DNA from: a virus
Virus record (IMG/VR): IMGVR_UViG_3300017917_001946
Coordinates: 1-64,000 of that record
Strand: one strand, 5' to 3'
DNA: 64,000 nucleotides
The notes under the pieces were generated by a model. That model saw nothing but the letters and a program-made list of their open reading frames with translations. It was not told where the DNA came from and made no database searches. The position numbers and the translations under genes were made by a program. Below, one piece after another: positions 1 to 60,346 of this stretch. How positions within the stretch are numbered: position 1 is the stretch's first letter; every line of letters starts with the position of its first letter.

Positions 1-1
1 T

Positions 2-178
2 CCATACTATGTTATGGATTTTGATCACGTACGTGGGCGGAAGCATAAGAATGTAATGGAACTTATTCCTACACTATCCAAGAAGAAGATAGATGAAGAA
101 ATAGCTAAGTGTGAAATAGTTTGCTCAAATTGTCATAGAGTCAGAACTCATAATCGTAAAACTAAGAAATCTGAATAA
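2..178 (+). CDS. HNH endonuclease, C-terminal fragment cut by the window edge
   Basis: An open frame enters from the left edge and ends at TAA 176-178, giving 58 residues. It carries the second half of a zinc-finger HNH nuclease: a YVMDFDHV block holding the catalytic Asp-His pair, then IVCSNCHRVRT with the second CxxCH knuckle. It closely parallels the intact HNH protein at 1093-1488 (PYYMLDLDH and VVCANCHRIRT), so the two are paralogs. Such free-standing nucleases in phages are usually mobile homing enzymes; that role is inferred. The N-terminus is not visible. Confidence 0.85.
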   Translation, partial: PYYVMDFDHVRGRKHKNVMELIPTLSKKKIDEEIAKCEIVCSNCHRVRTHNRKTKKSE

Positions 179-186
179 TATCCTAG

Positions 187-215
187 TTGACTAGAATATA
201 TATAGATGATACAAT
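187..215 (+). promoter_or_regulatory. Promoter TTGACT-N17-TACAAT, leaderless
   Basis: The -35 box TTGACT is at 187-192 and the -10 box TACAAT at 210-215, with a 17-bp spacer and an upstream TGA giving an extended -10. Exactly six bases separate the -10 from the ATG at 222, so the expected transcript begins at or within a base of the start codon. The hexamers match those of the minus-strand promoter at 2575-2603. Confidence 0.75.
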
Positions 216-221
216 AAAAAT

Positions 222-332
222 ATGAACGAAAAAATACCAGGATATAAGCAGACTCCACCTGATTGGTGTGATGACTGCAATGCTGCTCCAGGAGGAGAAT
301 GTCCAGATTGTGGATGTACTCACAATTGCTAA
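222..332 (+). CDS. Cysteine-rich microprotein, possible zinc ribbon
   Basis: This 36-residue frame begins at an ATG six bases after a consensus-like promoter and has no ribosome binding site, so it is probably translated leaderless. The sequence has six cysteines: a DWCDDC knuckle, ECPDCGC and a C-terminal THNC. The CxxC pairs suggest one bound zinc, although two disulfides are also possible. It heads a run of four tiny genes (222-653) with 8-16 base gaps or overlaps, which looks like one transcript. I do not recognise a family, and the function is unknown. Confidence 0.6.
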   Translation: MNEKIPGYKQTPPDWCDDCNAAPGGECPDCGCTHNC

Positions 333-341
333 AGAGAAATT

Positions 342-425
342 ATGTTTGAATTTCTATTTATATCAGGATTGATAGTATTTAGTTTATTAGTGGTTATTAC
401 TCTTATTATGGATATAATTAATTAA
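342..425 (+). CDS. 27-residue single-pass membrane microprotein
   Basis: The frame starts at ATG 342, nine bases after the previous gene, behind an AAAGAGA ribosome-binding-like stretch. Almost the whole product is one hydrophobic helix (FLFISGLIVFSLLVVITLIM) with a short acidic tail, so it should sit in the inner membrane. No family is recognised. Its place in a run of similar microproteins supports its being real. Host-membrane or exclusion functions are common for such phage peptides but are only a guess here. Confidence 0.5.
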   Translation: MFEFLFISGLIVFSLLVVITLIMDIIN

Positions 426-433
426 GGATAAAG

Positions 434-580
434 ATGAAAAAGAAATTTTTAGGAATGATGGTTCTAATTGCGACAGCAATTGCTTTTGGTACATTTCTAG
501 TTAATACTATAAAAAAGGCGGGACTCGAAGACATCTTTGACTTCGACCTAAATGAAGAGATAGATGAAGAAGCTTTCTAA
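434..580 (+). CDS. 48-residue membrane-anchored microprotein with acidic tail
   Basis: ATG 434 lies behind AGGATAAAG, a plausible ribosome binding site. The product has a lysine-rich N-terminus (MKKKF), a hydrophobic segment at about residues 6-24, then KK and a strongly acidic C-terminus (EDIFDFDLNEEIDEE). This is the layout of a signal-anchored peptide. Its end overlaps the next microprotein gene by 17 bases. No family is recognised. Confidence 0.55.
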   Translation: MKKKFLGMMVLIATAIAFGTFLVNTIKKAGLEDIFDFDLNEEIDEEAF

Positions 581-653
581 ATTCCTTATTTGGTCTCTAT
601 TGGTCATAATGTTTATATCTAGCTTATCTGTATTTAGTCTTATATTGGAGTAA
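564..653 (+). CDS. 29-residue membrane microprotein overlapping the previous gene
   Basis: ATG 564 lies inside the end of the preceding gene in another frame, with GAGA upstream. The product MKKLSKFLIWSLL... is a basic N-terminus followed by one hydrophobic helix. It is the fourth and last of the microprotein run and may be translationally coupled to the gene it overlaps. Function is unknown; confidence rests mainly on the pattern and position. Confidence 0.45.
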   Translation: MKKLSKFLIWSLLVIMFISSLSVFSLILE

Positions 654-712
654 ATTTAGCCTTTTCCATTCTCCCGCCCTTTTCTGCCTTGATCGACCCG
701 TAGGGTCATAAT

Positions 713-889
713 ATGGCTAAAAGTGGCTTAGAGGGCCTACAGAGCAATTTAGAGGCATATTGTGGAAATGATGGTAAATGGGAATGTCTCTCTTCCGCCG
801 AATCACTTTTTTCGGGCGCACTTTTAAATCGCACTATATATAAATTGTTTCATGTGAAACATTGCCAGCGCCTCCGCAAAATAGTATAA
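713..889 (+). CDS. Possible 58-residue protein spanning the parS-like site
   Basis: A frame of 58 codons starts at ATG 713, with AGGG eight bases upstream, and ends at TAA 887-889 inside the -10 box of the tRNA promoter. It encodes a protein with two central cysteines and a basic C-terminus. The stretch 846-861 reads LFHVKH, which is simply the translation of the palindrome there. The region is GC-richer than its surroundings and holds a GACCC/GGGTC hairpin (695-707) and a CGCCGAA/TTCGGGCG hairpin (about 796-818), so it could equally be a noncoding control region. I treat the gene as doubtful. Confidence 0.3.
   Translation: MAKSGLEGLQSNLEAYCGNDGKWECLSSAESLFSGALLNRTIYKLFHVKHCQRLRKIV
846..861. 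promoter_or_regulatory. parS-like 16-bp palindrome
   Basis: TGTTTCATGTGAAACA differs at one central base from the widely conserved bacterial chromosome-partitioning site TGTTTCACGTGAAACA bound by ParB. It sits directly against the -35 box (862-867) of the tRNA promoter, so it could be a ParB loading site, an operator or both. No ParB gene is visible in this window. The near-identity is seen; the function is inference. Confidence 0.5.
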
Positions 890-890
890 T
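862..890 (+). promoter_or_regulatory. tRNA promoter TTGCCA-N17-TATAAT
   Basis: The -35 is TTGCCA (862-867) and the -10 is TATAAT (885-890), separated by 17 bp. The predicted start is at about 897, three bases before the 5' end of tRNA-Asn. It probably drives both tRNA-Asn and tRNA-Gly. Confidence 0.7.
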
Positions 891-899
891 TTTATATAT

Positions 900-972
900 T
901 GACCCATAGCTCAGTCGGTAGAGCGCAGAGCTGTTAACTCTGATGTCACAGGATCGAAGCCTGTTGGGTCAG
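900..972 (+). tRNA. tRNA-Asn (GUU)
   Basis: A full cloverleaf can be drawn. The acceptor stem is 900-906 with 965-971, the D arm GCTC/GAGC, the anticodon stem CAGAG/CTCTG with loop CTGTTAA (anticodon GTT at 933-935), and the T arm ACAGG/CCTGT. The discriminator base is G972. No CCA is encoded, so the end must be added by a nucleotidyltransferase. It reads AAC and AAU. Confidence 0.93.
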
Positions 973-976
973 CAAT

Positions 977-1050
977 GCGGATGTTGCATATCGGTAGTGC
1001 CTCTGCCTTCCAAGCAGAAGGGGTGAGTTCAATTCTCATCATCCGCTCCA
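977..1050 (+). tRNA. tRNA-Gly (UCC)
   Basis: The acceptor stem GCGGATG (977-983) pairs with CATCCGC (1040-1046). The anticodon stem TCTGC/GCAGA encloses CTTCCAA with anticodon TCC (1009-1011). The discriminator T1047 is followed by an encoded CCA (1048-1050), unlike the neighbouring tRNA-Asn. It reads GGA, a codon used very often in the glycine-rich fibre genes of this window. Confidence 0.92.
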
Positions 1051-1057
1051 AATAGTA

Positions 1058-1086
1058 TTGACATGATTCGATCCATTTTATATAAT
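1058..1086 (+). promoter_or_regulatory. Consensus promoter TTGACA-N17-TATAAT, leaderless
   Basis: A perfect -35 TTGACA (1058-1063) and perfect -10 TATAAT (1081-1086) are separated by 17 bp, with six bases from the -10 to ATG 1093. This places the transcript start at the ATG and makes the in-frame ATG at 1063, inside the promoter, untenable as the start. Confidence 0.8.
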
Positions 1087-1092
1087 CGAACT

Positions 1093-1488
1093 ATGAGGCA
1101 TAAAGAAGATATTATTAAACTTAGATCTGAAGGCAAGACTTATAATCAGATAGTAGAAATACTAGGTTGTTCTAAAGGAACCATTGCTTATCATTTAAGC
1201 GAAAGCGTAAAAGTTAATTATAATACTCGTAAAAGAAAATATAGACGTGTAATTGATAAGCACATTAGAGAGTATAAGGAATCCTTTGGCTGCATTGACT
1301 GTGGAGAAAAGTATCCATACTACATGCTTGATTTAGATCATATTACAAATGATAAAAAATTTAGTGTTTCTGATTATAGAAGCCATACTATAGATATAGA
1401 ATTAATAAAAGCAGAAATAGCAAAATGTGAAGTTGTCTGTGCTAATTGCCATAGAATAAGAACATACCAGAGATCTGGTAGAGAATAA
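1093..1488 (+). CDS. HNH homing-type endonuclease with N-terminal helix-turn-helix
   Basis: 131 residues from ATG 1093. An in-frame ATG at 1063 overlaps the promoter -35 and is rejected. Residues about 4-30 (DIIKLRSEGKTYNQIVEILG) form a helix-turn-helix. The nuclease half has CIDC, then LDLDH with the catalytic Asp-His pair, and CANCH as the second zinc knuckle: the standard His-Me finger HNH fold that nicks or cleaves double-stranded DNA. It lies between tRNA-Gly and tRNA-Arg, a common landing place for mobile phage endonucleases. It resembles the fragment at 2-178. Confidence 0.88.
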   Translation: MRHKEDIIKLRSEGKTYNQIVEILGCSKGTIAYHLSESVKVNYNTRKRKYRRVIDKHIREYKESFGCIDCGEKYPYYMLDLDHITNDKKFSVSDYRSHTIDIELIKAEIAKCEVVCANCHRIRTYQRSGRE

Positions 1489-1495
1489 ATATTAA

Positions 1496-1568
1496 CCCTT
1501 CGTAGCTCAGTGGATAGAGCGAGGCTCTTCTAAGGCCTGCGTCACACGTTCGAATCGTGTCGAGGGGG
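1496..1568 (+). tRNA. tRNA-Arg (UCU)
   Basis: The acceptor stem CCCTTCG (1496-1502) pairs with CGAGGGG (1561-1567, one G-T pair). The anticodon stem AGGCT/GGCCT encloses CTTCTAA with anticodon TCT (1529-1531), and the T arm is CACACG/CGTGT-type. CCA is not encoded. It reads AGA, the dominant arginine codon in most genes of this window. The convergent minus-strand gene ends two bases away at 1570. Confidence 0.9.
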
Positions 1569-1569
1569 C

Positions 1570-2187
1570 TCAGACTATATTAGTTATTATTCCGTCTGTA
1601 ACTGTTATTGTTTTACCATCAGCAGTTGTAAAAGATCCAGATGCACCTTTAAAGTTTACCCAATAAGATCCATTCCATTTAATCATGTCGCCAGAGGACT
1701 TACTTGTTAAAACTAAATTATGTAGCTCTTCCATCTCGAAACCGTTTTGAACTTTAACAAATATTTCACCGTTATTTTGTTGTTTACGTGTAACTATTCC
1801 AATAAATACTAAATGGGCTGGAGCCACTGGCTTATTTGCAAGTCCATATATAAGATTTCCATCTGTGCCCAGCCATACTGGATCCCCAGGATTTGCGCTA
1901 TTTGTATTTAATCCAGAAAGCAATCCTTCAGTAATTACATATCCCTGACCATTAACAGCAAGACTTGTCTCTATAAGACCCATAGTTTTACTAGAGGTAG
2001 ATTCCTGTGTATTTGATGCTTTCCCAACAATCATATTGGTTCCGTCATTACCAGTCGATCCAGTTACATAGACAGCTTGCCCTTTAGTTAAAGCAACACC
2101 AGCTTTTACTAAATGCTTTACAGTGCTTGTATATGAAGGTATAACAACAGGTGTTATATGAGGATCAGTTACTCTAATGCTTGTCAT
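1570..2187 (-). CDS. Virion structural protein, probable appendage or decoration protein
   Basis: 205 residues starting at ATG 2187, overlapping the stop of the upstream gene (ATGA). The central part (VKAGVALTKGQAVYVTG, then GYVITEGLLSG, GDPVWLG, and GEIFVKVQNGFEMEELHNL) matches a beta-rich protein that recurs in many uncultured aquatic phages as a virion or fibre component. The C-terminal 35 residues form a separate small beta module. It is placed with its partner at 2184-2456 on the strand opposite to the main structural block. Exact role unknown. Confidence 0.65.
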   Translation of the reverse strand: MTSIRVTDPHITPVVIPSYTSTVKHLVKAGVALTKGQAVYVTGSTGNDGTNMIVGKASNTQESTSSKTMGLIETSLAVNGQGYVITEGLLSGLNTNSANPGDPVWLGTDGNLIYGLANKPVAPAHLVFIGIVTRKQQNNGEIFVKVQNGFEMEELHNLVLTSKSSGDMIKWNGSYWVNFKGASGSFTTADGKTITVTDGIITNIV

Positions 2188-2456
2188 TTTCTATCTAACT
2201 CTAGTACAGCCACTTGAACGCCAGCATCTCCAATTGCATATATATTATCGCTCCAAGAAAGTTCAACGGTAAAAGATTGTCCTGGATATAATTTATGACC
2301 AAAATTAGATAAAGAAACATTTTCATTTCCAAGATAAGCATATCCCGTATCCATAATATTTTGTATAGATAATGTATTTGTAGAATGAATTATTTCTCTG
2401 GTAACCAAGTTTTGTGGTGTTCCATTTAAAGTCATTATTTTATGAGATAGCTTCAT
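2184..2456 (-). CDS. Small beta-rich virion-type protein
   Basis: 90 residues from ATG 2456 (MKLSHKIMTL). The frame is open further upstream, but the ATG lies exactly six bases after a TATAAT -10, so I take it as the start. The sequence looks like a single beta-sandwich (sheet-forming alternation, PGQSFTVELSW motif). It is coupled by ATGA overlap to the virion protein downstream, so it is probably a partner in the same particle substructure. No family is recognised with certainty. Confidence 0.6.
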   Translation of the reverse strand: MKLSHKIMTLNGTPQNLVTREIIHSTNTLSIQNIMDTGYAYLGNENVSLSNFGHKLYPGQSFTVELSWSDNIYAIGDAGVQVAVLELDRK

Positions 2457-2462
2457 GCATCT

Positions 2463-2492
2463 ATTATACAGCCTAATAAGGACAAAACCCAA
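2463..2492 (-). promoter_or_regulatory. Promoter for the 2456-1570 gene pair, leaderless
   Basis: On the minus strand TATAAT is at 2468-2463, with TTGGGT 18 bp upstream (2492-2487) and six bases from the -10 to ATG 2456. The -35 lies within the 3' arm of the upstream terminator hairpin. Confidence 0.6.
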
Positions 2493-2515
2493 TCAGAGGC
2501 GGATCCGATTGGGTT
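2480..2515 (-). terminator. Terminator hairpin AACCCAATC/GATTGGGTT
   Basis: On the minus strand a perfect 9-bp stem (2515-2507 with 2494-2486) has a 12-nt loop and is followed by TTTTGTCCTT. It ends the proposed small RNA or, alternatively, acts as an attenuator in the leader of the 2456 gene. Confidence 0.6.
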
Positions 2516-2569
2516 CTGCTGTTCTTGCGAACATGTACTGGGAGCAAGTGGGATGCTACGACCAGTACT
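2480..2569 (-). ncRNA. Candidate small structured RNA of about 90 nt
   Basis: A strong promoter (TTGACT-N17-TACAAT, 2603-2575) points into 95 bases with no plausible gene. The RNA would fold into three consecutive hairpins. The first is GUACUGG/CCAGUAC (2568-2562 with 2541-2535) with an inner AGCA/UGCU helix. The second is UGUUC-GCAA-GAACA with a GNRA-type tetraloop (2533-2520). The third is the 9-bp terminator hairpin (2515-2486) followed by a U-rich tract. A boxed promoter, three helices and a terminator are the hallmarks of a bacterial sRNA. A regulated 5' leader for the gene at 2456 is the main alternative. I recognise no known RNA family. Confidence 0.5.
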
Positions 2570-2574
2570 TAATA

Positions 2575-2603
2575 ATTGTAAAATAGTATAAATTCTAAGT
2601 CAA
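2575..2603 (-). promoter_or_regulatory. Promoter TTGACT-N17-TACAAT on the minus strand
   Basis: The -35 TTGACT is read at 2603-2598 and the -10 TACAAT at 2580-2575, with a 17-bp spacer. The predicted start is at about 2569. The hexamers are identical to those of the promoter at 187-215. No start codon follows in a sensible position. Confidence 0.65.
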
Positions 2604-2610
2604 CTATTTT
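2580..2610 (-). terminator. Weak bidirectional terminator-like hairpin AAAATAGT/ACTATTTT
   Basis: An 8-bp A/T-rich inverted repeat (2580-2587 with 2603-2610) lies just beyond the stop of the gene ending at 2622. It could end transcription of the minus-strand operon from 3706, and it physically overlaps the promoter of the candidate small RNA. Confidence 0.35.
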
Positions 2611-2621
2611 TTATAACTTTT

Positions 2622-2834
2622 TTAATCTATAGGATCTGGACTGTATGCTGGATTAGGTCCTAGCAAATAACCCTTTTCATGATATTCAACCATCTTAGAA
2701 ACTTCATCTGCCCCAACTGTAGATTTAGCTATAAGTGTAAGCATGTCATAAATTCTATGTAGCATGATATAAGTGACCATAGGTAAATTTTCTTCTATGG
2801 TCCCGTTTTCTTGAGGTATATTTTCTTCAGTCAT
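2622..2834 (-). CDS. Small conserved-looking phage protein of unknown function
   Basis: 70 residues from ATG 2834 (MTEENIPQENGTI). An earlier in-frame ATG at 2879 would overlap a better-placed small gene, and the chosen start has GGAAG five bases upstream and overlaps the previous stop. The protein is acidic at its N-terminus and has a helical middle (MVTYIMLHRIYDMLTLIAKS) and a proline-rich end. It is the last gene of a four-gene minus-strand operon downstream of the transglycosylase. Function unknown. Confidence 0.6.
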   Translation of the reverse strand: MTEENIPQENGTIEENLPMVTYIMLHRIYDMLTLIAKSTVGADEVSKMVEYHEKGYLLGPNPAYSPDPID

Positions 2835-2937
2835 TTGGTCTTCCAAGATCTTCCCAAAATTTTTCTCTACCCATTGCATCGGTTTCTGGGATCATTTTTG
2901 ATTCATATTCGGCAGGTTGCGGAATGTTATTTGTCAT
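2827..2937 (-). CDS. 36-residue nested microprotein
   Basis: This frame starts at ATG 2937, inside the end of the zinc-ribbon-like gene, and stops at 2827, inside the start of the next gene, so both junctions overlap by a few bases as in a translationally coupled operon. The product is hydrophilic with WEDLGRPND at its end. It fills what would otherwise be a 92-base gap. Function unknown. Confidence 0.55.
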   Translation of the reverse strand: MTNNIPQPAEYESKMIPETDAMGREKFWEDLGRPND

Positions 2938-3142
2938 TAATTTGCTCAACAGTTTTTTTAATATTTTCATACATATTTACACCTAAGTAGTTTTTATAGC
3001 TGCAAGATGTGCAGTATAAATATATATTGTCCTCCCAATCAAGGTTAGACATAAGAAGGCCCTGATCCATTGGACATTCAAGTCGTGGAGCAAGGCCTTC
3101 TTCTGCTAGCTGAAGGTATTTAGATACGTACTGTATCCTCAT
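2927..3142 (-). CDS. Small zinc-ribbon-like protein
   Basis: 71 residues with a clear ribosome binding site (AAAGGAAGG, three bases before ATG 3142). Cysteines at about positions 23, 44, 47 (CPMD... YLYCTSCSYK) make an incomplete zinc ribbon: one CxxC plus a lone upstream CP. The protein begins with a basic helical segment. It lies directly downstream of the transglycosylase and is co-transcribed with it. No defined function. Confidence 0.6.
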   Translation of the reverse strand: MRIQYVSKYLQLAEEGLAPRLECPMDQGLLMSNLDWEDNIYLYCTSCSYKNYLGVNMYENIKKTVEQINDK

Positions 3143-3154
3143 AAACCTTCCTTT

Positions 3155-3706
3155 CTAATTTGGGAATTCAGTTATGAATTCTTTGAATCTTGCCCCGTTA
3201 AGGGAAGACCATGATGACCAGTCAGTTCCGCCTTTAGTCATATAATACGTTATCTCTGAGTTTATTACTGGATCAAACAATAAAATATTTGATCTTAATT
3301 CAAATTTTTCTTTACGATCAATGCCGAGTTCACCCAACATATTAATCTGAAAAATTCCGTAGGAACTGTCTCCAGTTTTCCTGTTACCATTGTAAGCCAT
3401 AGGTCTAGCATTAGATTCTGACTTAGCAATAGCCCAAGCCATTTTAAGGGCTTTTCCTTCAAAACCAACAGCTGATAAAAGTTCTTTTAGTTCTTTGTCT
3501 GTTAGATTCTCAGAAGGCTTGTACACAGTAGTGCTGTACTTCTCTAAGGTTTCTTTCTTTAGTTGTACTGTCGATTTAGGTGTTTCCACCGTTAGTGCTT
3601 GAGTTGCTGTTGGACCAGGCTGGACTGTAAACAAGAATAATGTTATCATTCCTATATAAGACCAGTTGTGAGCAACATCGCTCAAACGCTCTTTGATTCT
3701 CTCCAT
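3155..3706 (-). CDS. Lytic transglycosylase / lysozyme-like protein with N-terminal membrane anchor
   Basis: 183 residues from ATG 3706, which has GGAGG at ideal spacing (8 bases). An upstream in-frame ATG at 3769 coincides with the promoter -35, and another at 3712 is too close to the GGAGG. Residues about 15-28 (WSYIGMITLFLFTV) are a signal or membrane anchor, followed by a Pro/Thr-rich linker. The C-terminal domain carries AIAKSESNARP with the catalytic glutamate (E97) and DSSYGIFQINM, the SLT/goose-type lysozyme signature. It would cleave peptidoglycan glycan strands, either for lysis or for release. It is first in a minus-strand operon. Confidence 0.8.
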   Translation of the reverse strand: MERIKERLSDVAHNWSYIGMITLFLFTVQPGPTATQALTVETPKSTVQLKKETLEKYSTTVYKPSENLTDKELKELLSAVGFEGKALKMAWAIAKSESNARPMAYNGNRKTGDSSYGIFQINMLGELGIDRKEKFELRSNILLFDPVINSEITYYMTKGGTDWSSWSSLNGARFKEFITEFPN

Positions 3707-3739
3707 TGGCATTTCCTCCTTTAGAGATAACGAACTATA

Positions 3740-3769
3740 ATAGTAGCATTGGCTATAAGTTACTGTCAA
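3740..3769 (-). promoter_or_regulatory. Promoter TTGACA-N18-TACTAT for the transglycosylase operon
   Basis: On the minus strand the -35 is TTGACA (3769-3764) and the -10 TACTAT (3745-3740), preceded by TGC (extended -10). A GTCAA/TTGAC inverted repeat (3765-3779) places a TTGAC on the plus strand as well, towards the divergent glycosyltransferase, but no convincing plus-strand -10 follows it. Confidence 0.65.
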
Positions 3770-3792
3770 GTCAGTTGACCAGAAAGAATTAA

Positions 3793-4803
3793 GTGGAAAT
3801 ATCTTATTATACTATTAGAGCGGGACTTAATCCAGCAGTAGGATTTGGTTATGCTGGTCAAAATATTGTTAATTCCCTACAAGAAATGGGACACACAGTT
3901 AAATTTGCTAACTCTAAACTTCCAGTTCAATTAAATTTTACACAACCACATCATTTTAAATTACATAAAGGACAATACCAAATTGGTTATACTCCTTGGG
4001 AATCTACAAAAATTAGAACAGAATGGCGTGATATATTTAATCAATGTGATGAGGTTTGGGCAACATCAGATTGGACAGCAGAAGTATATAAAAATAATGG
4101 CGTAACAAAACCTATATTTGTTTATCCACATGGAATTGAAAAAAAGTGGGCTCCATATAAAAGAATTTTACAAAAAGGAAAGCCATTAAAATTTTTACAT
4201 ATTGGAGAGCCTTCGCCAAGAAAAGACGGACAACTAGTAGTAGATACTTTTATAAAACTTTTTGGCAATAATCCAGAATATCACTTAACTGTAAAATGCC
4301 ATGGATCATCAACTATAAGAGTATATAATAAGTTCGATCAATTAATCTCACCAGATGAGATATATCATAATATTACTATTATAAAAGAAGAATATACTGT
4401 TGAACAATTAGTTCAACTTCATCATATGCATCATGTATTAGTTTATCCTAGTTGGGGAGAAGGTTTTGGTTTTATCCCGCTTCAAGCTTTAGCAACTGGT
4501 ATGCCAGTAATATCAACTTATGATTGGGCACATTATAAAAAGTTTTTAGGTCCCCTAAAGTTAAAGTCAAGATTGACAGATGCTTCAAAAGAAGGAGTTC
4601 CAAAAGCTGTTGGTGATCCACATCTTGGAAGTTTTTATCAACCAGATAAAGAACATTTAGAAGATCAAATGGTTGATGCAGCAATAAATTTTAAAGCATA
4701 CTCTGGTTATTACTTTGCTCAGTCAACTAAAATACATGAAGAATATAATTGGATTCAGTTGACCAATAATGCTTTCGATCATATTTTTAAAAAGTTTTCT
4801 TAA
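3793..4803 (+). CDS. GT-B glycosyltransferase, family 4-like
   Basis: 336 residues from a GTG start; no ATG is available before conserved sequence. The N-terminal half has a glycine-rich loop (NPAVGFGYAGQNI) and the C-terminal half the nucleotide-sugar site (FLHIGEPSPRKD, then VYPSWGEGFGFIPLQALATGMPVI). In the usual E-x7-E motif of GT4 enzymes the second glutamate is here a glutamine, so activity or donor handling may differ. Phage glycosyltransferases modify DNA, virion proteins or host surface polymers; nothing here distinguishes these. It lies between the lysozyme-like gene and the ribonucleotide reductase. Confidence 0.8.
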   Translation: MEISYYTIRAGLNPAVGFGYAGQNIVNSLQEMGHTVKFANSKLPVQLNFTQPHHFKLHKGQYQIGYTPWESTKIRTEWRDIFNQCDEVWATSDWTAEVYKNNGVTKPIFVYPHGIEKKWAPYKRILQKGKPLKFLHIGEPSPRKDGQLVVDTFIKLFGNNPEYHLTVKCHGSSTIRVYNKFDQLISPDEIYHNITIIKEEYTVEQLVQLHHMHHVLVYPSWGEGFGFIPLQALATGMPVISTYDWAHYKKFLGPLKLKSRLTDASKEGVPKAVGDPHLGSFYQPDKEHLEDQMVDAAINFKAYSGYYFAQSTKIHEEYNWIQLTNNAFDHIFKKFS

Positions 4804-4807
4804 CCTC

Positions 4808-4836
4808 TTCCCACCTGAATAAAAGTTTGGTAGAAT
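4808..4836 (+). promoter_or_regulatory. Probable promoter with extended -10 TGGTAGAAT
   Basis: TAGAAT (4831-4836) is preceded by TGG, and a weak -35 TTCCCA lies 17 bp upstream (4808-4813). It would drive the ribonucleotide reductase gene. Confidence 0.45.
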
Positions 4837-4888
4837 TAGTATCTTACTAAAAATTAATTAATCGCATATGGCGGAGAAAGAGTGTATT

Positions 4889-6823
4889 ATGTCAAGAACT
4901 ATTGATAATCCTTATGAAAATTTTATTGCATTGTCTCGTTATGCAAGATGGATGCCAGAAGATAATCGTCGTGAAACATGGGGAGAAACAGTAGATCGTT
5001 ATTTTGACTTTATTATCAATCATTTAAAAGAAAATAATAACTATACTCCAGATGAAAAAATTGTTAATGAATTAAAAGAAGCCGTTTATAATAGAAATGT
5101 AATGCCATCAATGAGAGCAGTAATGACTGCTGGTGCTGCTTTAGAAAGAGACCATGTTGCAGGATATAACTGCTCATTTGTTCCAGTAGATTCACCTAGA
5201 TCATTTGATGAAACAATGTATATTCTTATGTGTGGAACAGGTGTTGGATTCTCTGTTGAATATAAGTATGTTAATAAACTTCCTGCCGTCCCAGAAACAT
5301 TTGAAAAATCTACAACAGTAATTACAGTTGAAGATTCTAAACAAGGTTGGGCAAAGGCATATAGGGAACTACTAGCATTATTATGGACTGGCCAAGTACC
5401 TTCAATTGATGTAAGCAAACTACGTCCAGCAGGAGCACGTCTTAAAACTATGGGCGGAAGATCTTCAGGCCCACAACCACTGATTAACCTATTTGATTTT
5501 ACAATTGCAAAATTCAAATCAGCGGCAGGTCGTCAGTTAAAACCAATTGAAGCACATGATATTATGTGCAAGATTGGAGAAATTGTTGTAGTTGGTGGAG
5601 TACGTAGATCAGCAATGATTTCTCTTTCAAACATTAATGATATTGAAATGGCTGCCGCAAAATCTGGTAACTGGTGGGAAAATAATTCTCAACGTGCATT
5701 ATCAAATAACTCTGTTGCGTATTCTCGCAAACCAGAGATGGCACAGTTTATAGCAGAATGGAAAAATCTTTATGACTCAAAGTCTGGCGAACGTGGAATC
5801 TATAATGTTGCAGCAGCGCAGGCGCAGGCAGCTAAATATGGTCGTAGAGACCCTGAAATCCATTATGGAACAAACCCATGTTCAGAAATCATTCTCCGTC
5901 CTTATCAGTTTTGTAATCTTTCAGAAGTCGTATTACGTGAAAAGGATACAGTTGAAGATGTATCGAATAAAGTACGCCTTGCAACAATTCTTGGAACTTG
6001 GCAATCGACATTAACAGATTTTAAGTATCTTCGTAAAATTTGGAAAGACAATACAGAAGAAGAAAGACTGCTTGGGGTTTCTTTAACTGGTCAATTTGGA
6101 CATAAGTTCTTTTCAGGAAAACAAGATTTAAAAAAGCTAGAAGCAACACTATCTGGCCTTAGAGAATATGCTAGATCTGTTAACTCAGAAGAGGCAGCAA
6201 AACTTGGCATTCAAGAATCTGCAGCAATTACATGCGTTAAGCCATCTGGTACAGTATCTCAATTAGTTGGAGTTTCTTCTGGAATGCATCCATGGCATTC
6301 TGAATACTATATTAGAACAGTTCGTGGAGACAAAAAAGATCCACTATCTACATTTTTAAAAGAAGTCGGAATTCCAGTAGAAGATGACTTTATGAAACCA
6401 AACGATACATATGTATTTTCATTTCCAGTAAAAGCACCAGAAGGTGCAATTATTAGAAATGATTTAACAGCACTAGATCATTTAAATACCTGGCTTGTTT
6501 ACCAACGTGCATGGTGTGAACACAAGCCTTCAATTACAGTTTCCGTTCGTGAGGAAGAATGGATGGCTGTGGGAGCCTGGGTATGGGAACACTTTGATGA
6601 AGTATCTGGAATTTCATTCCTACCGCATTCAGATCATTCATACAAGCAAGCACCATATCAAGAAGTTTCCGAAGTAGAGTACCTAGACCTTCTTGCAAAA
6701 ATGCCATCAGCCATTCGTTGGGAAGACTTATCTTTTTACGAAACAGAAGATGGAACATCTGGAACACAAACATTAGCATGCACTTCAGATGGCAATTGTG
6801 AAATTGTAGACATTTCTGCTTGA
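4889..6823 (+). CDS. nrdJ: Adenosylcobalamin-dependent (class II) ribonucleotide reductase
   Basis: 644 residues from ATG 4889; an in-frame ATG at 4868 would add MAEKECI, but the GGAG/AAAGAG stretch lies between the two and favours 4889. The enzyme makes deoxyribonucleotides from ribonucleotides. It matches the monomeric RTPR-type layout: C95 (GYNCSF), active-site C331 and E333 (NPCSEI) and C342 (FCNLSE), with the same 2- and 11-residue spacings as the Lactobacillus enzyme, and a C-terminal pair (C-x5-C, LACTSDGNCEI) for re-reduction. GTGVGF and KPSGTVSQL are nucleotide- and phosphate-binding loops. It stands alone and needs host or imported B12. No radical subunit is needed or seen. Confidence 0.93.
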   Translation: MSRTIDNPYENFIALSRYARWMPEDNRRETWGETVDRYFDFIINHLKENNNYTPDEKIVNELKEAVYNRNVMPSMRAVMTAGAALERDHVAGYNCSFVPVDSPRSFDETMYILMCGTGVGFSVEYKYVNKLPAVPETFEKSTTVITVEDSKQGWAKAYRELLALLWTGQVPSIDVSKLRPAGARLKTMGGRSSGPQPLINLFDFTIAKFKSAAGRQLKPIEAHDIMCKIGEIVVVGGVRRSAMISLSNINDIEMAAAKSGNWWENNSQRALSNNSVAYSRKPEMAQFIAEWKNLYDSKSGERGIYNVAAAQAQAAKYGRRDPEIHYGTNPCSEIILRPYQFCNLSEVVLREKDTVEDVSNKVRLATILGTWQSTLTDFKYLRKIWKDNTEEERLLGVSLTGQFGHKFFSGKQDLKKLEATLSGLREYARSVNSEEAAKLGIQESAAITCVKPSGTVSQLVGVSSGMHPWHSEYYIRTVRGDKKDPLSTFLKEVGIPVEDDFMKPNDTYVFSFPVKAPEGAIIRNDLTALDHLNTWLVYQRAWCEHKPSITVSVREEEWMAVGAWVWEHFDEVSGISFLPHSDHSYKQAPYQEVSEVEYLDLLAKMPSAIRWEDLSFYETEDGTSGTQTLACTSDGNCEIVDISA

Positions 6824-11988: not shown

Positions 11989-12318
11989 ATGGCAACAATA
12001 TCAAAACTACTAGCAAGAACAACTCTTACAACTACAAATACTACCGTGTTGTATACAGTTCCTTCTGCAACAACAACAATACTTACAAATATAATTATAA
12101 GTAATATTACTGCATCAGCAGCATCATTTAACCTTACATTTCCAGACGCTACTGGAACTCAGGTAGCATTTGCTACATCTGTATCTGTTCCAGCAAACAG
12201 CATAGCGTCATTTGATTTGAAACAGGCACTTGGTGGATCTGGAACTCAAACAGTAATAGGATGGGCATCTGCTAACTCTGCATTAACAGCACATCTAAGC
12301 GGAGTTGAAATATCATAA
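11989..12318 (+). CDS. Small beta-sandwich virion protein (paralog of the 17810 and 20060 genes)
   Basis: 109 residues behind a good GGAG site. It is rich in threonine, alanine and valine with regular beta alternation: ILTNIIISNITASAASFNL, then VSVPANSIASFDL. The same pattern (TNII/NNLIISNI followed by small residues and VxVPxGxS/Axxxxxxx) is present in the products of 17810-18169 and 20060-20392. The family is widespread in marine and freshwater phages as a small virion protein, probably a trimeric decoration or fibre-associated sandwich. Confidence 0.6.
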   Translation: MATISKLLARTTLTTTNTTVLYTVPSATTTILTNIIISNITASAASFNLTFPDATGTQVAFATSVSVPANSIASFDLKQALGGSGTQTVIGWASANSALTAHLSGVEIS

Positions 12319-12319
12319 A

Positions 12320-12700
12320 ATGGCATATAGCACATTTCCAGCAACTTCTTCAATTATAAAGTCAGTTCAAAGAGGCTCAGCGGCTTCTGCTGGAAACGTA
12401 ACTATATCTGCAGTAGATATATCTAAATCTTTTGTAAATTCATTTTCAACAGGTTCTACTGGAAGCATATCAACAAATAGCAGTACATCTGGAACCTATA
12501 CTCCATCTGGAGGAAATATAGGACAATACTCTCAATCTTTTAACCCAGGAAGCGGATCTTATCCAAACTTAGTAGGAACTAGAAGCTTTAGCGGAGGATC
12601 TACATCATTAGTTTCATCAGCATATGGAGCATATCTAGTAAACTCTACTACAATAACCGTCACAGGTTCTTGCCGCTGGGAAGTTGTGGAGTATGCATAA
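12320..12700 (+). CDS. Tandem paralog 1 of 4: IKSVQRG-type virion protein
   Basis: 126 residues from ATG 12320, immediately after the previous stop. The shared family pattern is IKSVQRGSAASAGNVTI near the N-terminus, SFVNSFSTG, a Gly/Ser-rich middle, GTRSFSGGSTSL, YGAYLVNSTTITVTG and a conserved end RWEVVEYA. This is a small all-beta protein met in many phage structural clusters. Copy 1 has the most divergent middle (GQYSQSFNPGSG). It is coupled by TAATG to copy 2. Confidence 0.65.
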   Translation: MAYSTFPATSSIIKSVQRGSAASAGNVTISAVDISKSFVNSFSTGSTGSISTNSSTSGTYTPSGGNIGQYSQSFNPGSGSYPNLVGTRSFSGGSTSLVSSAYGAYLVNSTTITVTGSCRWEVVEYA

Positions 12701-13077
12701 TGGGATCTAGAATTTATCCATCTACAGCTTCTCCAATTAAATCAGTTCAAAGAGGTACGGCAGCATCTGCAGGAAATATTACCATTTCATCAGTTAATAC
12801 AAATAAAGCATTTGTTACATCTTTTTCAACTGGTGCAGCAGGAACAGTAGCTGGATCTGCAAATACATCTGGAACATATACTCCAAGCGGTGGCTCAGTT
12901 GGAGCACCTGGAGGAAACCTTAATACGTCTGGATCTTTTCCAACTTATTCTGGAACACGAAGCCTTTCTGGCGGATCAACATCTTTAATAGCTGCAAAGT
13001 ACGGCGCATATTTAGTAAATGCTACTACAATAACAGTAACTGGTGCATGCAGCTGGCAAGTTGTGGAGTATCTATAA
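12700..13077 (+). CDS. Tandem paralog 2 of 4: IKSVQRG-type virion protein
   Basis: 125 residues; ATG 12700 overlaps the previous TAA. It is collinear with the neighbouring copies (IKSVQRGTAASAGNITI, SFSTGAAGTVAG, GTRSLSGGSTSL, CSWQVVEYL). An upstream in-frame ATG inside the preceding gene is rejected because alignment of the four copies begins at this ATG. Variation between copies concentrates in the Gly/Ser-rich middle. Confidence 0.65.
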   Translation: MGSRIYPSTASPIKSVQRGTAASAGNITISSVNTNKAFVTSFSTGAAGTVAGSANTSGTYTPSGGSVGAPGGNLNTSGSFPTYSGTRSLSGGSTSLIAAKYGAYLVNATTITVTGACSWQVVEYL

Positions 13078-13463
13078 TGGCAACTTCTTTATTTCCAGAA
13101 AGTATTTCTACAATTAAATCTATTCAGAGAGGCTCTACAGCAGGTGCAGGAAACGTAACAATTAGTTCAATAGATACAAATAAATCTTTTATTAGATCTT
13201 TTTCAACGTCTTCCGCTGGTTCAGCCCAACTTGTTGGTAACGAATCTGGAACATTAAATCCATCTGGTGGAAGCATTGTTGGACCAGGTGGTGGAGGTGG
13301 AGCAGTATCTGGCGGAGGAACATTTGCTAACTATGCTGGAACTAGATCTTTTAGCGGAGGAACAACAGCAGTTACAGTTCAAGAATATGGTGCATATATA
13401 GTAAACTCCACAACAATAACAGCAACAGGAGCTTGTCGCTGGGAAGTGGTGGAATACTCATAA
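13077..13463 (+). CDS. Tandem paralog 3 of 4: IKSVQRG-type virion protein
   Basis: 128 residues, start overlapping the previous stop. It shares IKSIQRGSTAGAGNVTI, SFIRSFSTSS, GTRSFSGGTTAVTV and CRWEVVEYS with its neighbours, but has an enlarged glycine loop (GGGGGAVSGGGTF). It probably occupies an equivalent position in the same oligomer or in an alternative fibre tip. Confidence 0.65.
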   Translation: MATSLFPESISTIKSIQRGSTAGAGNVTISSIDTNKSFIRSFSTSSAGSAQLVGNESGTLNPSGGSIVGPGGGGGAVSGGGTFANYAGTRSFSGGTTAVTVQEYGAYIVNSTTITATGACRWEVVEYS

Positions 13464-13840
13464 TGACTATTAGAGTTTACCCTGCAGTTTCTTCTGGAAT
13501 TAAATCAATGCAAAGGGGTTCTGCTGCGTCTGCTGGAGCCATAACAATCTCATCTGTAGATACAACAAAATCTTTTGTTACATCTTTTTCTACTGGATCA
13601 GCTGGAACAGTTGCAACCAACAGTTCAGAAAGCGGTACATTGACTCCTTCAGGTGGTTCTGTTGCTACAGCCTCTAATGGAGCAATGGGTGGAGGTTCAT
13701 TTCCAAACTTTATTGGAACAAGAAGTTTATCTGGCGGATCTACTTCTTTAACATCAGCAGAGTATGGAGTAACATTAACAAATTCAACAACATTGACAGC
13801 AACAGGTGCTTGTCGATGGCAGGTAGTAGAATATTACTAA
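13463..13840 (+). CDS. Tandem paralog 4 of 4: IKSVQRG-type virion protein
   Basis: 125 residues, start overlapping the previous stop. It keeps the frame of the family (IKSMQRGSAASAGAITI, SFVTSFSTGSAGTV, GTRSLSGGSTSL, YGVTLTNSTTLTATG, CRWQVVEYY). Copy 4 is followed by a fresh ribosome binding site for an unrelated gene, so the array ends here. Confidence 0.65.
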   Translation: MTIRVYPAVSSGIKSMQRGSAASAGAITISSVDTTKSFVTSFSTGSAGTVATNSSESGTLTPSGGSVATASNGAMGGGSFPNFIGTRSLSGGSTSLTSAEYGVTLTNSTTLTATGACRWQVVEYY

Positions 13841-59918: not shown

Positions 59919-60346
59919 ACGGAAAAATACATAAAGTAGTTAGAGCGTCAAAAGCTAGGGACGAAATAGTTGCTTGGTGTTACCCTGATAAAAAAAGAGT
60001 AATGTATTCATATTCTCAAGTAAAAAAGAATATGGGCAATGCATATTCAATTAAACAGGTCTGTGAAATTTTAAATAGACACAGAGTTACTGTTGAAGAA
60101 TATATACTTCAGGGTAAAATTAAAGAGCCACAAAGAGTTTATCCAATTAGTAATCCAGATAGCTCATGGTATAAATTTATGTTTAGCGAGTCCGATATAT
60201 ACGATTTGCACCAATTTATACTAGATGCTGGGTATACAAAGGATTTTCCTTCTAAGGCAGAGTTAACAGCTCTTCTCAAACACGGCTTAATATTGTATAC
60301 TAAGACTGACGAAGGTAGCTTCGTACCAGTATGGAAGGCGGAATGA
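59864..60346 (+). CDS. DNA-binding protein with MerR/excisionase-like helix-turn-helix
   Basis: 160 residues from ATG 59864, overlapping the zinc-ribbon gene by 55 bases in another frame. The N-terminus is very basic (SKRQRPRKK) and includes FFLNGKIHKVVRASKARDEIVAW. Residues 60-90 (YSIKQVCEILNRHRVTVEEYILQGKI) are a MerR/excisionase-like winged helix-turn-helix, followed by FMFSESDIYDLHQFI as the wing and a helix. A replication initiator, repressor or helicase-region regulator are all possible; it is a natural candidate for binding the dyad at 58868. Confidence 0.7.
   Translation: MVRSKRQRPRKKLLYFFLNGKIHKVVRASKARDEIVAWCYPDKKRVMYSYSQVKKNMGNAYSIKQVCEILNRHRVTVEEYILQGKIKEPQRVYPISNPDSSWYKFMFSESDIYDLHQFILDAGYTKDFPSKAELTALLKHGLILYTKTDEGSFVPVWKAE

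Follow-up and report, generated by a model that had tools for sequence, protein, structure and literature searches.

A covarying small RNA gene with an almost invariant hexaloop in environmental phages, and the ribonucleotide reductase leader as its candidate target

To our knowledge, few phage small RNA (sRNA) families are known as conserved outside the model enterobacterial prophages. In Gram-positive bacteria, the sRNAs of the RsaE/RoxS group are chromosomal regulators whose C-rich loops carry UCCC-type seeds and target Shine-Dalgarno regions, and among phage RNAs the c4 antisense RNA is catalogued as Rfam family RF01695. In phages P1 and P7, c4 is a structured phage RNA that uses its loops to base-pair with a phage mRNA at the ribosome-binding region, according to a published account (PMC12197685), which also presents IsrK, AgvB and AsxR as enterobacterial prophage RNAs acting on host or prophage genes. 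RNA anti-CRISPRs (Racrs) are small phage non-coding RNAs (PMC10651486).

The RNA described here resembles the RsaE/RoxS group in its C-rich unpaired seed, its G-rich candidate target near a start codon and its intrinsic terminator, and differs from it in being phage-borne, in its proposed seed UCCGCC and in lacking an Rfam match, the two having been compared by Rfam scans only. With the Racrs, which mimic CRISPR repeats, it shares the nature of a small phage non-coding RNA (PMC10651486), and IsrK, AgvB and AsxR are likewise phage-borne regulatory RNAs, with sequences compared through Rfam scans only (PMC12197685). The nearest described relative that we met in terms of working principle is c4, although nothing suggests common descent: c4 targets the antirepressor gene ant of P1/P7, whereas here the putative seed resides in a terminator loop, the candidate target is a ribonucleotide reductase (RNR) and Rfam holds no match (PMC12197685).

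A 68,467-bp phage record in IMG/VR, of which the first 64,000 nucleotides (the window) were analysed, contains the locus on its minus strand. The neighbours of the locus, both also on the minus strand, are a small gene of uncertain start on one side (2834-2622) and a gene for 90 aa on the other (2456-2184). From the interval between them, the original prediction had read an sRNA with its own promoter, a 7-bp stem with an inner helix, a GCAA-loop hairpin and a perfect 9-bp terminator stem with a U-rich end, all in the same orientation and about 90 nt in total; each of these elements was found on the minus strand. The promoter, TTGACT-N17-TACAAT, occupies 2603-2575, and the predicted RNA gene of ~90 nt extends from 2568, the first base of hairpin P1, to about 2478. 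P1 (2568-2535) has a 7-bp outer stem (2568-2562/2541-2535), an inner helix and, in addition to what had been read before, a 2-nt 5' bulge; in the 'long' form carried by the window its loop is C-rich (AUCCCAC). P2 (2533-2520) is a 5-bp hairpin with the GCAA loop, and P3 (2519-2482), a predicted intrinsic terminator, has a stem (2519-2504/2497-2482) with a perfect 9-bp core, or 16 bp counting wobbles, followed by a U-rich tail that is modest. The hexaloop of P3, UCCGCC (2503-2498, minus strand), is the proposed seed.

The minus-strand RNA folds with a z-score of -6.5, with none of 200 shuffled sequences equally stable, compared with -3.3 for the opposite strand. Within positions 1-6000, promoter-like patterns numbered 25 versus 25.8 in shuffled sequences and terminator-like patterns 3 versus 2.6, in a scan whose minus-strand list did not contain the P3 terminator. 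Such patterns thus occur at chance level in this AT-rich DNA, and the significance of the locus must come from its conservation.

We therefore turned to related phages, which were fetched with the protein encoded upstream as the sole query and hence blindly with respect to the RNA, and searched them with R1, a covariance model trained on 10 relatives. R1 matches the window at 2478-2566 (67.5 bits, E 7.8e-13). In 78 of 80 protein-fetched viral loci (the best 80 of 181, many of them near-identical), the RNA was found downstream on the same strand; five of the 10 training rows of R1 are among these 80 loci, so that the scores of those rows follow by construction. Both exceptions are cut short by contig ends: L095 stops just past the gene, and the sequence of L082 runs out after the promoter and the first hairpin. 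In 115 of 121 distinct RNAs, that of the window among them, the best promoter-like pair is spaced by 17 nt; its score is 10.5 or more in 105 of the 121 and 9.5 or more in 114, on a scale with a maximum of 12.5 that gives a half-point bonus to the 17-nt spacing. The predicted promoter is thus kept 5' of P1 across relatives.

The association was also seen from the other direction. Among at least 119 loci matching the terminator pattern, partly on contigs also fetched by protein, 112 of 119 had the gene of the small protein upstream in the same orientation, and the remaining seven are loci whose RNA lies less than 1 kb from the upstream end of the fetched stretch. The small gene and the RNA are 69 to 2509 nt apart, such that one or more genes may intervene, and in one locus (L417) the small gene and a GGCGGA leader occur with an R1 score of at most 12.6 bits on a contig that continues for 1063 nt past the gene. 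By gene content, the upstream gene is a fixed neighbour of the RNA and the downstream context is not. In the window this gene (2834-2622, minus strand), which can be read as an 85-aa ORF from 2879, encodes a protein of ~70 aa whose counterparts precede the RNA in nearly all relatives and which matches phrog_12271, a family of unknown function.

Compensatory changes were abundant on both model-fitted and unfitted alignments, bearing out the covariation proposed as a check of the sRNA reading. In an alignment fitted to the model, with rows taken from 89 sources chosen as distinct RNAs (window included), 23 of 28 base pairs showed double-sided changes and 94.5% of cells were paired across 88 distinct rows, compared with at most 47.9% in slid and 75.8% in shuffled controls. 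An unfitted MAFFT alignment of 22 representatives gave double changes in 23 of 30 pairs and 90.1% pairing versus at most 47.2% when slid, and RNAalifold alone recovered the three hairpins, with double changes in 20 of 25 pairs. These changes were distributed over P1 (helices 1 and 2 of the model; 9/10 modelled pairs), P2 (helix 3; 5/5 pairs, with 83.5% of cells paired) and P3 (helix 4; 9/13 modelled pairs). P1 occurs in two forms, a short GGUYGAGC..GCUCC and the long GGUYGUAGCAUCCCAC..GCUCC of the window, its bulge U and GAG/CUC being nearly invariant, and takes a different form in L147, L205 and L218. P2 is highly variable in sequence and is absent from L098, L125 and L244. Together with the promoter kept 5' of P1, the compensatory changes support the sRNA reading, and on this comparative evidence we consider it near certain that the locus is a real RNA gene.

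Searches for described relatives of this RNA returned none. An Rfam 15 scan of the window and 20 other loci, the c4 family included, gave only tRNAs at gathering score, and a further comparison of the RNA with Rfam gave a single match at 13.1 bits against a cut-off of 80. A blastn search of INPHARED found no homologue. The RNA pattern matched bacterial genome contigs 36 times, none homologous by eye, and the best R1 match among these was to P3 only (L272; 22.7 bits, E 0.0099); in 396 genomes of one phylum, R1 gave two matches of ~33 bits (E 3.5e-4 and 4.5e-4) resembling ordinary terminators. Among the matches listed from CC-licensed PMC papers, no title or opening of an abstract described the RNA, and none of the titles listed for the loop sequence was that of a phage-RNA paper. 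By these comparisons the RNA is a new family of a known functional kind, combining clear covariation with a sharply defined loop and occurring in many environmental phage contigs, and its model would annotate an intergenic element that is now blank in many viral contigs.

The hexaloop of P3 was UCCGCC in 77 of the 78 loops visible in the protein-fetched loci, among which many sequences are near-identical; the exception, L139, reads UCAUCC. A fetch by the P1 sequence pattern alone returned 42 new distinct 95-mers among the matches listed, and 29 of these showed UCCGCC downstream together with 7/7 pairing of the P1 arms, the other 13 being unrelated by eye (two of them pair a 7-nt arm by chance). 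In L314 and L330, two of the 29, the closing pairs have changed together with UCCGCC kept, and in L396 and L398 the P3 stem is wholly different and the loop unchanged. Since the stem drifts under a pairing constraint and the loop stays fixed, termination alone is a hard explanation; an almost invariant hexaloop in a covarying stem is the pattern expected of a pairing seed or of a binding site for protein.

Several other roles of the loop region were considered and rejected. Anti-Shine-Dalgarno mimicry of the 16S 3'-end (GGAUCCGCCUC resembling GGAUCACCUCC) and dimerisation through the palindrome GGAUCC both involve the GGA/UCY part, which L314, L330, L396 and L398 lose while keeping UCCGCC; AGA in L112, L115 and L117 also argues against both. 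A weak test of rRNA as the target, made on a single 16S locus and on a 23S contig sampled in two stretches, found no copy of GGCGGA, the complement of the loop, inside the matched rRNA. A peptide as the conserved function was rejected because half of the RNAs (26 of 51 representatives) lack any ATG ORF of 8 codons or more. The other 25 contain one, in a single shared frame relative to the loop in 21 and in other frames in four. By manual reading, the window RNA holds a 13-codon ATG ORF (2534-2494, minus strand) in that shared frame, and some members of the family may carry a mini-ORF.

In the window, GGCGGA occurs at 4870-4875 on the plus strand, 19 nt before the ATG at 4889, in the leader (UCGCAUAUGGCGGAG) of an RNR gene (4889-6823, plus strand) that is 66% identical to Streptomyces phage RNRs and appears from its length and C-terminus to be of class II type. 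Where the locus also shows the RNA, 134 of 143 distinct leaders carry GGCGGA upstream of the RNR start; for this count the RNA was recognised with a regular expression, which passes over some loci that R1 detects (such as L189 and L193, both GGCGGA-bearing). Across all RNA-clade loci, 150 of 162 distinct RNR leaders contained it and 12 did not, one of the latter (L345) not being leader-like, and its first base lies 18-27 nt ahead of the ATG in all but four of 127 distinct contexts (123). A further 33 distinct leaders, at least 80% identical to either RNR query, came with no RNA seen by the regular expression, and 27 of these have GGCGGA; several hold the RNA by R1 (such as L084, L108, L453 and L458), and most of the others have under ~3.3 kb left on the RNA side. 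The predicted loop-leader duplex has an energy of -10.2 (6 bp) to -12.6 (7 bp) kcal/mol. By duplex energy with the loop, the RNR leader of the window is second of its 67 start regions (68 entries, with RNR at two starts), slightly behind a start region near 60331.

As a control, we fetched RNR loci with a Streptomyces-phage RNR, obtaining 80 among the matches listed, of which one was already in our set and 79 were used. R1 matched four of the 79, and exactly those four had GGCGGA within 60 nt before the start; three of the four lie on contigs that the RNA set already included. Neither the RNA nor GGCGGA was seen within the fetched stretch of the remaining 75 listed loci, and GGCGGA was also absent from three Streptomyces-phage RNR leaders read separately. 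Among other start regions it occurred in 15 of 1533, including two that belong to RNR genes which had escaped the filter. A role as a genome-wide motif was rejected, its 6.4-fold excess being largely glycine codon context: GGC-GGA occurs at 1.07 times the Gly-Gly margin expectation, and 335 of 366 ORF copies are in that frame.

Loop and leader do not change together in every case. Nine of the 143 distinct leaders are without an exact GGCGGA and their loop is still UCCGCC. The leaders of L067, L072 and L190 read GUCGUA (two mismatches) and that of L209 reads GGCGAA, both being sister groups of the window, and those of L115/L117, L181 and L245 have lost at least one base with the loop unchanged. 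Conversely, L139 has a changed loop and an unchanged RNR leader. In most RNA-clade leaders, moreover, GGCGGA forms the 3' arm of a small cis hairpin (CCGC-AAG-GCGG), and it may be kept for that hairpin or as a ribosome-binding element. The RNA-bearing phages also look like one clade, so that the association between RNA and site is not phylogenetically independent and may be co-inherited. Because of this apparent single origin and of the site losses without loop change, we regard the case for RNR pairing as evenly balanced. As a separate observation on the RNR leader (4855-4888, plus strand), its small hairpin sits upstream of the ribosome-binding site, and by eye the two arms change together among relatives (ACGAC..GUCGU, CUGCC..GGCAG, UCCG..CGGA).

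Combining these results, we propose a trans-acting sRNA whose P3 hexaloop pairs with the RNR leader, a reading we hold with roughly equal belief and doubt, its target being plausible but unproven. From the strong promoter, host RNA polymerase would begin transcription with the first base of P1 and terminate at P3, producing a discrete RNA of ~90 nt that would act in trans by base pairing, with P1 and P2 as structural parts. The hexaloop UCCGCC would serve as the seed, and its best candidate target would be the mRNA of the phage's own RNR, where 6-7 bp of pairing at the edge of the ribosome-binding region could compete with the small cis hairpin and tune RNR translation or mRNA stability during infection. 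What is observed is the sequence, the predicted structure, the covariation and the conservation of promoter, loop and complementarity; the transcript, its pairing, its target and the sign of its effect are inferred. The phage RNR leader is a concrete target that can be tested by mutation, and if the pairing is true, a phage would control its dNTP supply at the RNA level.

The same hexaloop could instead pair with a host mRNA or sRNA, the RNR match being a by-product of the clade's cis hairpin. This tentative alternative would explain why the loop does not change even in phages that have lost the RNR site or whose P3 stem is completely different; the long-form P1 loop is likewise C-rich, and two of the three Streptomyces-phage RNR leaders have, by eye, a hairpin of other sequence, so that the leader hairpin may be ancestral. 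It sits less well with the persistence of GGCGGA in leaders without the usual CCGC hairpin arm (L396, L398 and L413) and with its absence from all 75 listed RNR loci in which no RNA is visible. The fixed loop might also be read by a protein, with UCCGCC and the P1 GGUYGAG..CUCC bound by a phage protein, perhaps that of the upstream small gene, or by a host protein for which the RNA is a decoy. The near-perfect linkage to the small gene, in both directions, and the nearly invariant bulge U and GAG/CUC of P1 would fit, but linkage may be mere conserved gene order, and the small-protein family has homologues in 97 Streptomyces-phage records, in four of which the surroundings of the gene were examined and gave no sign of the RNA (best R1 score 10.1 bits). 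Its predicted structure consists of two helices (mean pLDDT 77.6), and a fold search of the PDB gave two matches, neither good (both E 9.7). We consider protein binding unlikely. Improbable as well, in our judgement, is a riboregulation module in which the ~70-aa protein would be partner or chaperone of the RNA, and the RNA, through its terminator hexaloop, would co-ordinate nucleotide supply by RNR with late gene expression across a whole clade of actinobacterial phages.

Two further readings would place the function of the locus in transcription itself. According to the original prediction, the RNA could be an attenuated leader of the structural gene at 2456, and the terminator does lie directly upstream of that gene, whose -35 region would overlap it. 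However, the downstream context varies among phages, with tRNA genes on the opposite strand after the RNA in some loci (e.g. L192; others by eye), and the upstream gene is the constant one, so that the RNA is not the leader of one gene; the fixed association with a single downstream gene that marks an attenuator or riboswitch was not found. The following gene, moreover, often has its own TATAAT: in the window at 2463-2468 (minus strand), 6 nt before the ATG at 2456 in a leaderless arrangement, and among 170 distinct downstream stretches as TATAAT-N4-9-ATG in 62 (N6 in 50) and in a weaker form in 12, with neither in 96, versus 0/170 on the opposite strand of the same stretches. This recurring spacing implies leaderless mRNAs, and we judge an attenuated or regulated leader to be very improbable. 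Scarcely credible, finally, is a mere promoter and terminator kept between operons for transcription punctuation: the promoter is near consensus and P3 would serve well as a terminator, but punctuation requires neither the covariation of P1 and P2 nor a loop that is almost invariant in a freely varying stem.

The phage itself probably infects an actinobacterium, as its portal protein (~59%) and RNR (66%) are closest to those of Streptomyces phages; those Streptomyces phages whose records were examined are members of the Stanwilliamsviridae. The phage differs from the first isolates infecting 'Ca. Nanopelagicales', which have 39-kb genomes with whiB (PMC10202952); WhiB was not found in the record studied here. 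Tetranucleotide counts in the window are 0 for CCGG (34.6 expected) and 0 for CGCG (19.7 expected), and in 1.08 Mb of terminator-pattern loci (L143-L261) 0 versus 875 and 26 versus 737, respectively. Loci fetched by the 205-aa protein encoded downstream (1570-2187, minus strand; a weak Phage_cement PF22758 match of 24.3 bits, below the cut-off of 27), of which three of 52 contain an R1 match, are near expectation (CCGG 354 versus 425; CGCG 165 versus 205). The contrast points to counter-selection in a single host lineage, for which restriction may be responsible.

Other features of the window include tRNA genes for Asn, Gly and Arg at 900-1569 (plus strand), the last two separated by a gene resembling HNH endonucleases, and a gene-poor region at 660-870 near this cluster that contains a AGTGCGCCCGAAAAAAGTG-type element on the minus strand. 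In several relatives (L085, L087 and L206), GTGCG elements of a similar kind occur downstream of the RNA, and AGTGCGCCC is present in Streptomyces phages. At 12305-13840 (plus strand), four consecutive ORFs of 131-138 aa are alike by eye and apparently arose by tandem duplications.
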